Source of the DNA: a virus
Reading direction: 5' to 3' (one strand)
Virus record (IMG/VR): IMGVR_UViG_3300032240_001545
Coordinates: 1-32,256 of that record
DNA length: 32,256 nt
In this document: piece by piece, positions 14,006-32,256 of the stretch
How positions within the stretch are numbered: position 1 is the first letter of the stretch
Layout of the letters: every line of letters begins with the position of its first letter
Position numbers and translations under genes: made by a program
The notes under the pieces: generated by a model
Told to the model about the DNA's origin: nothing
Database searches by the model: none
The model's input: only the letters and a program-made list of their open reading frames with translations

Positions 14006-14452
14006 TCAACTGGCGATCGAATTAGGATACGCGATGACTGCTAGTTTGTAGGTGCGACGCATCGTTCGCTCCTCATCATCGGCTTCTGGCTCAACTGATT
14101 CTAGTTTAGCGTTAAAACAACGGGCTGATCCGATGGCTGTGGTGGCGTTTAATCGCGTGGCTAGCGGGCTAGAATCATAGAAAACCTGCAAGATCTTGGA
14201 ACATTTTTGAGTGTGAGCGTCCACGGTTGTGTCGTCATATCTATCATTTACAACAATTTCAACTGGCACGCTAAATACGCCAGATCCTTGCACCGGCTCC
14301 TCTGTTCCTAGCGTCGCCTTTATGACAATAGATGGTGGCACATTCTCCGTTTTATCGTGCGACAAGTGATACGTCGGCCCGGTAACGGTGGCGGATAGAA
14401 TCTCTTGAAAAGCAGCTTCAATTAGACGATCAAGCATTGTGACAGCGGCCAT
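14006..14452 (-). CDS. tail terminator-like protein
   Basis: A 148-aa protein: a helical start (MLDRLIEAAFQEILSA), then beta strands (VFSVPVEIVVNDRYDDTTVD) and an acidic stretch near residue 125 (EPEADDEERTMRR) before a final strand (YKLAVIAYPN). Position before the tube gene, size and fold pattern fit gpU-like tail terminators. It starts two bases after the GT9-like gene, and an in-frame ATG five codons later (MLDRL) is an alternative start. Confidence 0.55.
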   Translation of the reverse strand: MAAVTMLDRLIEAAFQEILSATVTGPTYHLSHDKTENVPPSIVIKATLGTEEPVQGSGVFSVPVEIVVNDRYDDTTVDAHTQKCSKILQVFYDSSPLATRLNATTAIGSARCFNAKLESVEPEADDEERTMRRTYKLAVIAYPNSIAS

Positions 14453-14454
14453 GG

Positions 14455-15120
14455 TTACAGCTCCACGTCAACGCGGCCTGGCCATGAGGCAACGTTGTCC
14501 TGCTGCCATTGTTCTTTCTGTGGCAGGAAATAAGTAAGGCGATCTTTACGCAAGGCAGACGCCAGTATGGCCGGAGCTGAGTTAATCGTCATAAACTTGT
14601 CGGCGTGCTTAATGGCTTGCGCCATTTCGACAACTGATTGAGCCGTCCAATGTCTTTTATGAAAGTAGTATTGGCTTTCGCACATAATCACATAATCGCC
14701 CATCAGCTCTTCCGCTTTTTGTAGAATATCCAAGGTTGGATAATTCCATGCTTGGCTAATTCCTAGCGGAGCCAGAAGGTTGTATTGATCGGGCAAGCCA
14801 GGTGGCGGCCCGTCGGGTACGCGATCCAAAACGATCTTGCGATCAGCTTCAACAATCGCTGGATGTTGGTATACGAAATCCATCCATGACAATCCTGAAT
14901 TTCGAAATTCGTTGTATCGATTGGGCCAGATTTCTAGCTCCATACGTTCGCCCTTGCCTTCCCCTGGCGCCACCCAACTAGCATAAGAAACAAGATCTAG
15001 AACTCCCGCGTATTTCGGAAGGCATTCAATTTGCACTTCGTCTTTTTGCGCTAGATACTTGGCGGCGGGCAAGCATTGCAACACGTCGCCTAACCGCTGA
15101 TGATAAATAATGGTTTTCAA
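14455..15120 (-). CDS. GT9-like (GT-B) glycosyltransferase
   Basis: A 221-aa protein begins MKTIIYHQRLGDVLQCLPAA, the R-x-GD-x-x-x-x-LPA opening of family 9 glycosyltransferases (ADP-heptose:LPS heptosyltransferases). It ends with the sugar-nucleotide site pattern FMTINSAPAILASALRKD. The protein is short compared with the usual ~320-350 aa, and the middle region is compressed, so it may transfer a different sugar or work with the upstream enzyme. It is cytoplasmic. The 5' end overlaps the methyltransferase by 4 bases. The acceptor is unknown: virion protein and host surface glycan are both possible. Confidence 0.7.
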   Translation of the reverse strand: MKTIIYHQRLGDVLQCLPAAKYLAQKDEVQIECLPKYAGVLDLVSYASWVAPGEGKGERMELEIWPNRYNEFRNSGLSWMDFVYQHPAIVEADRKIVLDRVPDGPPPGLPDQYNLLAPLGISQAWNYPTLDILQKAEELMGDYVIMCESQYYFHKRHWTAQSVVEMAQAIKHADKFMTINSAPAILASALRKDRLTYFLPQKEQWQQDNVASWPGRVDVEL

Positions 15121-15752
15121 TTTCGTTCAGCAATAACCGTGATGATGTTTGCTTTTCCGTCAGGCAACGTGCCGCGAATCTTATCCTCTGGGCATCCTGT
15201 CCAAGTGACGGTATAATCAGAATAAGAAAGCAAGGTTCGCAACCCGCGCTCGTTAAAGTGATGATAGTGCTCGTTTTGCCTTCGGTGTTTCCAGTTGCGA
15301 AAAGAATCTGCGCCAGCCGTTTCGTGAAGCAGCGGGCAAGAAATCACAACTGCCTCTGCTCGCAGGCCGCGAAGTGTCCCACTTAGATCCGCATCTTCAA
15401 AGTGCTCCAAGCTGTCAAAAAATGTGACGATGCCTACTGACTTTGATATGGTTTCACTACGCCCTACTCCTCCGGGTAACGGATACCCGCTAATGTCGTA
15501 TCCAAACGCCTTGTGATCTCTGGCGTGGCAGTGACGCAAAAAGTCTCCGTTCCCGTAGCCAACATCTAACACGCTAGAGAAGTTGCCAAAATAAGAACGG
15601 ATTACATCGTAACGCAAAGCGCTCATGGCCTTCGTAGTAGTATAGGTGTCGTAGCGCTCTTTAACGTAAGCAATATCGTACGATGGGCCTTGGCCTGTTC
15701 GCTCTTCTTGCCACCAATGACCAGCGTGAATCCTGCGGTACCCTTCAATCAC
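15117..15752 (-). CDS. class I SAM-dependent methyltransferase
   Basis: A 211-aa methyltransferase with motif I LDVGYGNGDF at 62-71, the acidic residue D86 after the second strand (FGYDISGY) and FFDSLEHFED (about 111-120). A later EHYHHFNERGLRTLLS is typical of Methyltransf_23-type enzymes of sugar and glycan pathways, often found next to glycosyltransferases. It is sandwiched with 4-base overlaps between two glycosyltransferases. It probably methylates the sugar or the glycan tip made by them. The N-terminal 40 residues (HAGHWWQEER...ERYDTYTTT) are an extension of unclear role. Confidence 0.75.
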   Translation of the reverse strand: MIEGYRRIHAGHWWQEERTGQGPSYDIAYVKERYDTYTTTKAMSALRYDVIRSYFGNFSSVLDVGYGNGDFLRHCHARDHKAFGYDISGYPLPGGVGRSETISKSVGIVTFFDSLEHFEDADLSGTLRGLRAEAVVISCPLLHETAGADSFRNWKHRRQNEHYHHFNERGLRTLLSYSDYTVTWTGCPEDKIRGTLPDGKANIITVIAERN

Positions 15753-17434
15753 GGATTTCTCTCCTTGAATATCTTTTCACCCAGCTCGTAGTTTCCTTTT
15801 GCGTTATGGCGTTTAAATTCCGCATCCTGTGCCGCACCCGTAAAGAGCGGATTATTGTGAGTGAATACGATGTCCTTGGCGGGAATGATCACACCGTCGT
15901 ATGCAGCTCTTTTTGAAAATTCGTTGTCGCTAAAGATTCCAGAGCATGCGTCATACTCAGCAGCAAACATAGCACCCTGATCTTGCAGCCGAGCTTTGGT
16001 GAGGATTGCCATACACAACAGATCGTCTTTGCGATGCCCGTCAGATATAGCCAACACCTTCGGCTTGCTGGTATCGCCAATCCTGTCGGTGATTATTTTG
16101 TCCCAGTGTAGCGGAGGATCCCAATCGTCGGATCCTTGGATGAGGATATCCCCACGTGCTACTTCTGCCGCCCTGTTCCAAGCGGCAACGCATCCGCCCT
16201 TACCTTTTACAATCCCCCAATTTTTCAGCATGTCGGCCCTAGGATCGTCATCATCGACTGAGTAGATCCACTCAACTGAGGCTGGATCTGCCGCTTTTTT
16301 CATCCACAAGATGCGGGCGTTGATAGCTTCTTGTGGCCTGCCGCGAGTGGCGTGACATACGCTGATCTTCACTGGCTTCTGTGCCCGCCACATGTTCTCG
16401 ATCTTCTCAGCCTCTGTTGTGTCGCCCACGGCTTTGCAGGCCGCTAGGTAAAGATCAATGCACTCAAAGTCGTACACAGTGCGTTGAGCGTTCCAGATTT
16501 TTACTCCAGGATCGGGCTGAACCATAGCCGATTTTAGTAAGTGGTAAGCCTGCAACCATGCGCCTACGCTCGCCTCTTCCCTGGCTAAAAAGTAAATCGC
16601 CTCTCTTCGCCCGGGGTTCATCTGATGGGCCTTTTGGTATAGGCCGATCCTGACGGTGCGATCTTGTGTGGCTGTGGCCTGATTGCAGGCGGCCTCGTAA
16701 GCCAGCGTTGCCTCTTGCCCAGGCCAGACGGCCGCAACGTGTGACCAAGGCTCTGATTCTGTCCTGCGATTTCCTAAGAAAAGTTCCTGCTGGTAGTAGT
16801 ACGCATACTTGCCTGCTTCGCTTAACTGGCCCTGAAGAATGCGGAGATTGCGATCGGCGCTGTTTGGCTTATATCCGCCTGGGTGATGCTCTACCCATAC
16901 CGCCTGCTCGCCTACAGATTCCAGCCCAGCGTTAGGCAACAGCGCCTCATGCACGGCATAATGCCACCTACCAGACCATGCGCCGTCTATACGCCGCACC
17001 ATCCTTTCCCTTACCGGCCTCAATTTGGCGTTTAAAACTTCATATACGCCTGCATAGATGCCGAGCTTGGGATTCTTCTCAAAAGCATCCACAGCCCTTT
17101 TAATTGCGTTTTTGAGGTCTTTATGAGGCAAGTCGTCACAATCGACCCAAACCGCGTAGTCGCCAGTACAGGCATCCAAGGCGGTATTACGGGCGGCGGC
17201 AAAGTTATCGACGTGGGGCCAGCTCGCCCCTGCCGGTGCGTTTTTATATTCAACTATCCTAGCGCCTGAGCTTTCCGCAATTGCCCGCGTGCCGTCGTCA
17301 GGTCGGCCGCCCTGGGCAATGCAGACCACTAGCTCGTCGCAGAATGGCTTGAACGCGGTAAGGCAGCGGTCAATAAATTGCGCCTCGTGCCCGGCGATCA
17401 TGTAGATGGAGATTTTAGGATTTCGAGTGGCCAC
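15749..17434 (-). CDS. two-domain GT2 glycosyltransferase
   Basis: This 561-aa protein has two transferase-like domains. Domain 1 (about 5-190) is a GT2 GT-A fold: ISIYMIAGHEAQFIDRCL, then DCDD at 98-101 as the DxD metal site. The middle (about 240-345) has helical repeats, as in GT2-TPR proteins. Domain 2 (about 353-555) starts KISVCHATRGRP, then YSVDDDDPRADML and ILIQGSDDWDPP, a second GT-A-like unit with Asp-rich motifs. Such bifunctional proteins add two sugars or build short chains. The start is 2 bases after the head-tail gene, and the stop overlaps the methyltransferase start. Its place between head and tail genes suggests it acts on virion parts or on the host surface late in infection. 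Confidence 0.8.
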   Translation of the reverse strand: MATRNPKISIYMIAGHEAQFIDRCLTAFKPFCDELVVCIAQGGRPDDGTRAIAESSGARIVEYKNAPAGASWPHVDNFAAARNTALDACTGDYAVWVDCDDLPHKDLKNAIKRAVDAFEKNPKLGIYAGVYEVLNAKLRPVRERMVRRIDGAWSGRWHYAVHEALLPNAGLESVGEQAVWVEHHPGGYKPNSADRNLRILQGQLSEAGKYAYYYQQELFLGNRRTESEPWSHVAAVWPGQEATLAYEAACNQATATQDRTVRIGLYQKAHQMNPGRREAIYFLAREEASVGAWLQAYHLLKSAMVQPDPGVKIWNAQRTVYDFECIDLYLAACKAVGDTTEAEKIENMWRAQKPVKISVCHATRGRPQEAINARILWMKKAADPASVEWIYSVDDDDPRADMLKNWGIVKGKGGCVAAWNRAAEVARGDILIQGSDDWDPPLHWDKIITDRIGDTSKPKVLAISDGHRKDDLLCMAILTKARLQDQGAMFAAEYDACSGIFSDNEFSKRAAYDGVIIPAKDIVFTHNNPLFTGAAQDAEFKRHNAKGNYELGEKIFKERNP

Positions 17435-17436
17435 GG

Positions 17437-17736
17437 TTAAATCTCTCTCAAACCGAGCACGTAACTACCGATAGAAGTATCAATGGAGGCCACCCGATAG
17501 CTGACCGAGTTGGCCAGCAGAATAGATCCAATCGTAGGAGCTGTGGCTAAGTTCGCCACGTCGATAGTAAAAGTGGAGTTAAGATCCAGATCAAAGCCGC
17601 CCAGCTCCACGCTTTCTTTGCGGGTGATTGTCGAAAGGATGCCAGTAACGCTTGTCGATCCGATGGTGGCCGCCGTGCCAGTTTGAATATAAAGAGCAGC
17701 CAAACTTTCCTTTAGGCACTCTGTAAATTCAGACAT
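17437..17736 (-). CDS. head-tail joining protein-like
   Basis: A 99-aa protein: a helix (SEFTECLKESLAALYIQTG) then strands (SVTGILSTITRKESVELGGF; FTIDVANLATAPTIGSILLA; SYRVASIDTSIGSYVLGLRE). Size, all-beta character and position after the capsid gene match the gpFII/head-tail joining class. It is followed by the glycan genes with no gap and preceded by the capsid-distal terminator, so it must be made from read-through transcription or a promoter inside the capsid gene. Confidence 0.6.
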   Translation of the reverse strand: MSEFTECLKESLAALYIQTGTAATIGSTSVTGILSTITRKESVELGGFDLDLNSTFTIDVANLATAPTIGSILLANSVSYRVASIDTSIGSYVLGLREI

Positions 17737-17799: not shown

Positions 17800-18690
17800 T
17801 TAGCTACCGTTGATACGCACGAGGCTGTTGGTCTCGCCGGCCTTCACGCCGTAAATGAGGCAGTAGGTTCTGCTGAGCTGTCCGGTTTGGACAGAATAGG
17901 CTTCCCGTACTTGGACAGAAAGTCCGGTGCGGGGTTCCGTCACCACGCTGATGTCGCCGGGGATCGGAACGCCAGTGGGGATTTCGGGAACGCGGGCTGC
18001 AATTAAGAGCGCTTCACGTTGAGCGAAGAATCCGCCGAGGGTGATGCTGTTGGAAGGCACCGCGCTGTACATGTTGATGTTAAACCCGGCAACGGATCCG
18101 ATTCCGGCCGTGCGGGATTGTTCACCGCTGATCTGAGCATTCGCCACGATGGTCGAATCATTCAAAAGACGACCATAGAAGGAGGGAGCCAGAACCGCGT
18201 ACCGATCGTGTTGAGGCACGTTGGCGTTGTTGAGGGTGATTCCAGCCGATACAACGGATGCGTAGCTAAAGGATGACGAAGCAACCGTCAATGCGCTGGT
18301 GTAGCTGGTGGAGGTGACGAGCGTGAGCAAGTCGCCAACCATCTGCAAGCCGAGAGCGTGAGCGGCCGCACCGGCAAACCGTTCGATTAGGTTGATGTTT
18401 GAGCTGGTACGTTCTGCATCGTCCACCGAATAGGTAACGTGCTTGAACTTATTGAGGGTGATCTGCACGTCCGTCTGAGTTGTCGCGGTCGCTACGTAAC
18501 CATTAGCCTGGGAATAATCCTGGGCGGTTGTCGCAGAAATGCGGTGGGTGTAGATCGATGCGTTGTATTTAGCCGCTTCGCTGCTGAAATCCGTGACGGA
18601 GTTCTTAAGGAAGCTGTAATCTGCCACGAGGATTTCCAGAGCCCTCTGAGCGATTACATTGGCATTCGTTGTTCCGATTGTATTGGCCAT
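17800..18690 (-). CDS. major capsid protein
   Basis: A 296-aa protein: MANTIGTTNANVIAQRALEI, a helical N-arm, and an alternating alpha/beta body. It carries FKHVTYSVDDAERTSSNINL, and AFAGA-like helix RFAGAAAHALGLQMVGDLLT. A later LSRTYCLIYGVKAGETNSLV is typical for coat proteins of the P22 gp5/HK97-fold class. It has a strong ribosome site (AGGAG, 10 bases before the ATG), follows the protease-scaffold gene and is followed by a terminator-like hairpin, all expected for the most abundant virion protein. It builds the icosahedral shell in the cytoplasm of the host. Confidence 0.85.
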   Translation of the reverse strand: MANTIGTTNANVIAQRALEILVADYSFLKNSVTDFSSEAAKYNASIYTHRISATTAQDYSQANGYVATATTQTDVQITLNKFKHVTYSVDDAERTSSNINLIERFAGAAAHALGLQMVGDLLTLVTSTSYTSALTVASSSFSYASVVSAGITLNNANVPQHDRYAVLAPSFYGRLLNDSTIVANAQISGEQSRTAGIGSVAGFNINMYSAVPSNSITLGGFFAQREALLIAARVPEIPTGVPIPGDISVVTEPRTGLSVQVREAYSVQTGQLSRTYCLIYGVKAGETNSLVRINGS

Positions 18691-31952: not shown

Positions 31953-32203
31953 TTCGTTTGCCCCTGCTTGGCCATAAGTGCGGCCACAACTTCGTTCAAT
32001 CGCGCCACGTCACTCTCAAGGCGTTTCATGCGACACTGCAAATCAATCATCGCTGTTGCTGTCGACCACTCAGCCATGCCCACAGACTTGGACGGATTAA
32101 GGTGCTGAATAACGCCTTCAGCTTCCAAATCACGCACGCTACCGGCGGTCGGATTGAACGACTCCGGCAGGCCGCTTCGGTGCGGGGGCACCTCGGCGAA
32201 CAT
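31949..32203 (-). CDS. 84-aa coiled-coil early protein
   Basis: An 84-aa protein: a polar start (MFAEVPPHRSGLPESFNPTA) then, from about residue 52, a heptad helix (DLQCRMKRLESDVARLNEVV). It is complete here, and its 5' 70 bases recur at 1-70. The ATG is coupled by TGATG to the membrane peptide upstream (its end is seen at 32203-32256), and the stop overlaps the nuclease start. Confidence 0.7.
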   Translation of the reverse strand: MFAEVPPHRSGLPESFNPTAGSVRDLEAEGVIQHLNPSKSVGMAEWSTATAMIDLQCRMKRLESDVARLNEVVAALMAKQGQTK

Positions 32204-32256
32204 CAGAGAAACTCCTTACGGATAAAATCCCAAACCCACAGCAACACGCACATGGC
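32134..32256. repeat. terminal direct repeat, right copy (circle closure)
   Basis: Exact copy of bases 1-123. Joining the two copies leaves one unbroken coupled pair, the 50-aa membrane peptide and the coiled-coil gene. Confidence 0.95.
32203..32256 (-). CDS. 3' end of the 50-aa membrane peptide gene (duplicate copy, truncated by window edge)
   Basis: The last 17 codons and stop of the gene that is complete at 70-222. It is present here only because of the terminal repeat, and has the same TGATG coupling to the coiled-coil gene. Confidence 0.85.
   Translation of the reverse strand, partial: AMCVLLWVWDFIRKEFL

Follow-up and report, generated by a model that had tools for sequence, protein, structure and literature searches.

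We found that a constant glycosyltransferase gene (GT2) in the head-tail region of a small freshwater phage is followed by an exchangeable gene cassette. Eight alternative gene sets occur behind GT2 in the 76 distinct loci where the whole slot could be read, and the window (the whole stretch of 32,256 bases that was analysed) holds one allele of this polymorphic slot. The locus probably encodes a two-layer virion glycosylation system, with GT2 as its constant part and the exchangeable cassette responsible for the outer glycan.

The window is a complete-looking virus record with an exact 123-base direct repeat at both ends (1-123 and 32134-32256), as would be expected for a circular or permuted complete genome. 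Nearly all of its genes are on the - strand, and the late genes are in the order terminase, portal, putative protease, capsid, head-tail gene, glycan genes, and tail genes. A tyrosine integrase is encoded near the record start on the opposite strand to the late genes (506-1603, +), and thus the phage is probably temperate. Since this integrase covers the same region, the - strand open reading frame at 476-1441 is likely to be spurious. The anchor gene of the late region is the P22-coat-like major capsid protein (17800-18690, -; PF11651, E = 7e-6; phrog_283, E = 2e-30). The window phage and its relatives, which were gathered through GT2, through the capsid gene, and through a distant GT2, form a family of small freshwater phages. 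The closest cultured phage by capsid protein is Verrucomicrobia phage P8625 (28% identity), and the sole relative found when bacterial genomes were searched with the capsid alignment is one Opitutae MAG; the same kind of search with GT2 returned no relative. Because the capsid matches are to P8625 and this one MAG, they only suggest a host in Verrucomicrobiota. Outside the family, no capsid relative is nearer than these two (28-30% identity). Their capsid-to-tail intervals contain no recognisable glycan genes, and they are too distant to count as true empty sites.

The three glycan genes are all on the - strand. GT2 (561 aa, 15749-17434) and the methyltransferase (211 aa, 15117-15752) start with GTG, and the third gene (221 aa, 14455-15120) starts with TTG. 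As had been read from the sequence, they are joined by 4-base overlaps of stop and start codons, GTGA between GT2 and the methyltransferase and TTGA between the methyltransferase and the third gene. The cassette had also been described as having no gap to either neighbour, but both outer junctions are gaps of 2 bases. The gene immediately upstream (17437-17736, -) is probably a head-tail attachment gene. Its synteny is kept in the relatives, which agrees with the head-tail joining label given to it earlier, although its PF05354 match (E = 0.0067) is weak and below the cut-off. The gene downstream of the slot (14006-14452, -) also has conserved synteny, and it can be called tail terminator-like by position only, since neither Pfam nor PHROGs gave a match and a profile comparison with the P8625 protein at the equivalent place also found none. 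The exchangeable slot itself runs from the GT2 stop codon to this next gene (14455-15748, -). Homologues of the three glycan genes were seen in dozens of contigs, internal stops are absent from all GT2 copies, and dN/dS is low, so the three are more than chance open reading frames.

The sequence-only reading of GT2 as a two-domain enzyme held. The N-terminal GT-A domain (residues about 5-190, 16865-17422, -) matched PF00535 with E = 2e-12 and 47.7 bits (cut-off 23.3), besides other profile matches, and it also appears in the predicted model. It carries the sequence DCDD, and this acidic metal-binding DxD-type motif, D[CAS]DD, is present in 70 of 75 GT2 copies. The middle part is predicted to be a TPR-type helical array (residues about 192-350, 16385-16861, -). 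The second glycosyltransferase domain (residues about 356-560, 15755-16369, -) has a GSDDWDPP motif, matched phrog_14945 (E = 2e-8), and is about 28% identical to Streptomyces phage glycosyltransferases. GT2 also matched phrog_13126. The structure model, which has modest confidence (pLDDT 60), shows a GT-A domain, a run of helix pairs like those of TPR proteins, and another glycosyltransferase-like domain. Pfam support for TPR is confined to the homologues in podoviruses, whereas the window GT2 has predicted helices only.

GT2 is a constant gene of this phage family. It follows the head-tail gene in all 54 distinct loci that were collected through the capsid gene and had enough sequence, and by an approximate measure the spacing between the two genes is 1 or 2 bases in nearly all of them. 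The sequence-only reading had proposed looking for the same cassette position in related phages. The position of GT2 is the same throughout, but what stands behind it varies among the eight types. The reading had also taken the tight junctions as a sign of long residence and not of a recent insertion. This holds for GT2 and for the slot, which are old; the genes that follow GT2 were repeatedly exchanged for others, and their junctions are nevertheless still tight.

The likely role of GT2 is indicated by its closest profile and fold matches. When the GT2 alignment profile was compared with the PDB, the matches were GmaR (E = 2e-8), chondroitin synthase (6e-5), and SunS (0.003). A fold search with the model of pLDDT 60 placed SunS/ThuS first (E about 1e-11, 368-387 columns, TM-score 0.24-0.41). 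GmaR, which acts on Listeria flagellin, and SunS, which acts on sublancin, have cytoplasmic protein substrates, and the assembly of phage particles also happens in the cytoplasm. Therefore, GT2 might prime a virion protein. Moreover, the glycosyltransferase is encoded by the phage and lies among its virion genes. The best profile (GmaR, SunS) and fold (SunS/ThuS) matches of GT2 lie in its N-terminal and middle parts and suggest a possible resemblance to these enzymes; it differs from them in having an extra second glycosyltransferase domain and in its location in a virion operon.

The main rival is modification of a polysaccharide on the host surface, either at a late stage of infection or in lysogens, which would block superinfection or help progeny to be released from receptor debris, with the cassette swaps following host surface types. 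The tyrosine integrase permits lysogeny and thus surface conversion. Furthermore, since the closest profile enzymes include chondroitin synthase, a polysaccharide synthase, a lipid or polysaccharide acceptor is possible. Comparable islands in pelagimyophages, variable regions that carry glycosyltransferases and radical SAM cassettes, have been interpreted as modifying the host O-chain (PMC7029224). However, GT2 and its cassette belong to the late head-tail operon, and such an operon is generally silent in lysogens. We also recognised no membrane flippase, polymerase, or Gtr-like protein in the cassette types. The best profile and fold matches of GT2 are also protein glycosyltransferases. We therefore regard modification of the host surface as unlikely, though it is the most serious of the alternatives. 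The late position had been read earlier as a sign that either virion proteins or the host surface are modified. Glycosylation of a virion protein, the putative acceptor, is now the best supported function, given the GmaR/SunS profile matches and the podoviruses with a GT2-TPR gene near the capsid gene (see below).

The second gene is a class I SAM-dependent methyltransferase, as had been proposed (PF13489, 44 bits vs a cut-off of 27, E = 3e-11). Its closest relative in a cultured phage (38%, full-length) is in cyanophage S-SM2 (NC_015279.1; L216:3948-9658), where it lies in an island of nucleotide-sugar genes that includes one for a transketolase-like protein.

The third gene had been called a GT9-like enzyme (heptosyltransferase family). 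We rejected this label, as Pfam, PDB profiles, and fold gave no support for it and the sole resemblance to GT9 is the N-terminal motif RLGDVLQxLPAA. The 221-aa protein has no Pfam match. When seven of its relatives were scanned singly, only one meaningless Pfam match appeared even at E = 10, and none was to PF01075. The window genome as a whole gave no PF01075 match at E <= 1, whereas seven control genomes did. The predicted structure was unusable (pLDDT 38). A comparison of the small proteins of types A and C likewise gave no support for homology, the hhalign probability being only 0.3%.

The eight cassette types differ in gene content. Type A (10 loci, including the window) consists of the methyltransferase and the 221-aa protein, and type B (12 loci) of a different methyltransferase and a 222-aa protein of the same kind. 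Type C (43 loci) encodes four proteins: one of 254 aa with a GT9-like motif, one with a transketolase pyrimidine domain, a radical SAM protein, and one with an E1/TPP domain. Type D (4 loci) has the 254-aa protein, another kind of split transketolase, a methyltransferase, and the radical SAM protein. Type E (3 loci) contains a DUF5672 protein, a small open reading frame, a PF13578 methyltransferase, and the 221-aa protein, while type F (2 loci) contains an FkbM methyltransferase, a nucleotide-sugar transferase, and an exostosin GT47. The remaining two types are known from one locus each: type G has a GT47 fused to a radical SAM-like domain and a 219-aa protein, and type H is one 221-aa protein without a family. 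The kind of protein encoded by the third gene of the window is the last cassette gene of types A, B, E, and G. Many genes of the other cassette types are also joined by 4-base overlaps. The mean G+C content of the cassette is no higher than that of GT2 in all eight types and is lowest in type F (39.5% vs 54.6%). Different types were found in the same sample: A, C, and E in 3300022752, B and F in 3300032329, and C and H in 3300032332.

The edges of the slot are sharp. In blastn comparisons of five pairs of different type, homology reached within about 10 bases of the GT2 stop codon. In three of these pairs it came back within about 5 bases of the next start codon, and nothing between could be aligned. 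Between the window and L032, homology came back about 26 bases upstream of the next start, and between L149 and L150 (types A and B) it came back inside the last cassette gene. In this last gene, the first hundred alignment columns are type-specific (identity between types A and B 0.50-0.77), while in the remainder the similarity between types A and B equals that within type A. The change near residue 100 points to a second, internal exchange point. From these alignments, cassettes appear to be exchanged as whole units. A search for a resolvase as the swapping enzyme found none.

The cassette type is nearly unlinked to the flanking genes. Flank identities of same-type and different-type pairs are close to each other (0.82 vs 0.81 for the major capsid protein, 0.75 vs 0.76 for the head-tail gene, and 0.74 vs 0.75 for the downstream gene). 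A quick tree of the downstream gene, with many weak forks, required 27 changes of type vs a mean of 30.4 with shuffled labels. In relative L209, the type A methyltransferase is 91% identical to that of the window, while GT2 is 70% and the downstream gene 68% identical. No association of cassette type was found with the tested capsid, head-tail, or tail genes. This lack of co-variation would fit a conserved acceptor site and also fits an acceptor outside the virion.

A type distribution that is nearly random with respect to phylogeny would also be expected if the slot were a neutral landing place for morons, where GT2 is useful and the genes that follow it are exchanged with no selection for diverse glycans. 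Phage genomes are generally mosaic, and a minor tail gene downstream also has divergent alleles. However, GT2 and the tested cassette genes are under strong purifying selection. GT2 has a median dN/dS of 0.059 and the methyltransferase one of 0.031, and the cassette genes are within 0.03-0.06. In addition, recognisable genes for sugar or methyl transfer are present by Pfam in seven of the eight types (the exception being type H with its single gene), so the content is not random cargo, and an empty slot was never seen in the window's phage family. We consider a neutral slot improbable.

Still less probable is that these genes hypermodify the phage DNA, like the glycosyltransferase clusters of other phages. 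Attachment of a variety of glycans to DNA by phage glycosyltransferases is reported (Pyle et al. 2024, as cited in PMC12619734). Radical SAM and methyl-transfer enzymes would suit such tailoring. However, the head-tail position and the similarity to SunS and GmaR fit this explanation badly, and the complete-looking genome has no thymidylate-synthase-like gene, while the control for this search was matched. Tet_JBP also had no match in the genome, though the positive control gave none either.

Under two-layer virion glycosylation, the constant enzyme GT2 would start the glycan by attaching the first sugar or sugars to a virion protein encoded among the neighbouring late genes. The GT-A domain might add the first sugar while the TPR-like part holds the protein, and the second glycosyltransferase domain might then add a further sugar. 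The cassette behind GT2 would add the outer sugar or alter it chemically, and in the window this would be done by the methyltransferase and the small putative transferase. Related phages may exchange whole cassettes when they recombine within the conserved flanks, namely GT2 and the next gene. Because the cassette would be swapped whole, similar particles would bear different outer glycans, and selection would presumably act on this change of glycan. We put forward more tentatively, as a possibility, that this is a "serotype" locus, in which the constant glycosyltransferase primes a virion protein, the cassettes (some with radical SAM and split TPP enzymes) vary the outer glycan, and selection for rare coats keeps several types in one water body. 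If so, the locus would be a phage counterpart of capsule or O-antigen loci, with a conserved priming gene and interchangeable finishing genes, and the particle surface could change while its proteins stay unchanged. Since natural phage pairs differ cleanly in the cassette, the purpose of virion glycans would become testable.

Glycans are found on the capsid and tail tube subunits of mycobacteriophage virions, where they affect antibody recognition (Freeman et al. 2023, as cited in PMC12619734 and PMC10955285). Virion glycans are thus known in mycobacteriophages; here they are predicted from the genes, and the available parts of those accounts describe no exchangeable cassette beside a constant GT2-TPR enzyme in the head-tail operon. 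The host recognition cluster of pelagimyophages is similar in being a variable island in the structural region with glycosyltransferases and radical SAM cassettes. It differs in its size of about 45 kb, its tail fibres, its gradual divergence in place of clean replacement, and its interpretation as acting on the host surface (PMC7029224). Our literature search did not find cassettes of radical SAM and transketolase genes with glycosyltransferases in phages, nor a description of a constant GmaR/SunS-like gene with interchangeable cassettes between head and tail genes.

The combination of genes in the window had been judged not to be a standard module. This is fair for the exact trio, but a related arrangement exists at the equivalent place in Pseudomonas phages PAJU2 and IME307, which carry an insert between head closure and tail terminator, as in the slot of the window. 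In the cultured phages PAJU2 (NC_011373.1, L217:3555-5934) and L218, the insert holds a gene annotated as a sialyltransferase, one of unknown function, a PF13489 methyltransferase gene, and an HK97-gp10-like gene. The alpha-2,3-sialyltransferase annotation in the PAJU2/IME307 insert had no Pfam support, while the PF13489 methyltransferase is 28% identical to that of the window. Unlike the window, these inserts have no GT2-TPR gene. A homologous GT2-TPR-glycosyltransferase is encoded within three genes of the capsid gene in the podoviruses ctKR88 (MW202524) and L211, and its GT2, TPR, and GT4 parts are each supported by Pfam. More transferases and methyltransferases are encoded behind this protein. 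These phages differ from the window in that the second catalytic domain is of the GT4 type and the virion genes are unrelated.

Furthermore, the huge phage LR756501.1 (735 kb; L215:6798-9663) has all four genes of type C in the same order, beginning with the one for a small protein that has a GLGD motif and continuing with those for the transketolase pyrimidine-domain, radical SAM, and E1/TPP-domain proteins. The radical SAM protein is 39% identical to that of type C over 99%. This cassette corresponds to type C, whereas the window carries type A; it is embedded among many glycan genes, and no head-tail genes are adjacent to it in the part that was read. The recurrence of one cassette type gene for gene in a 735-kb phage indicates a shared pool of glycan modules, which thus move between very different phages.
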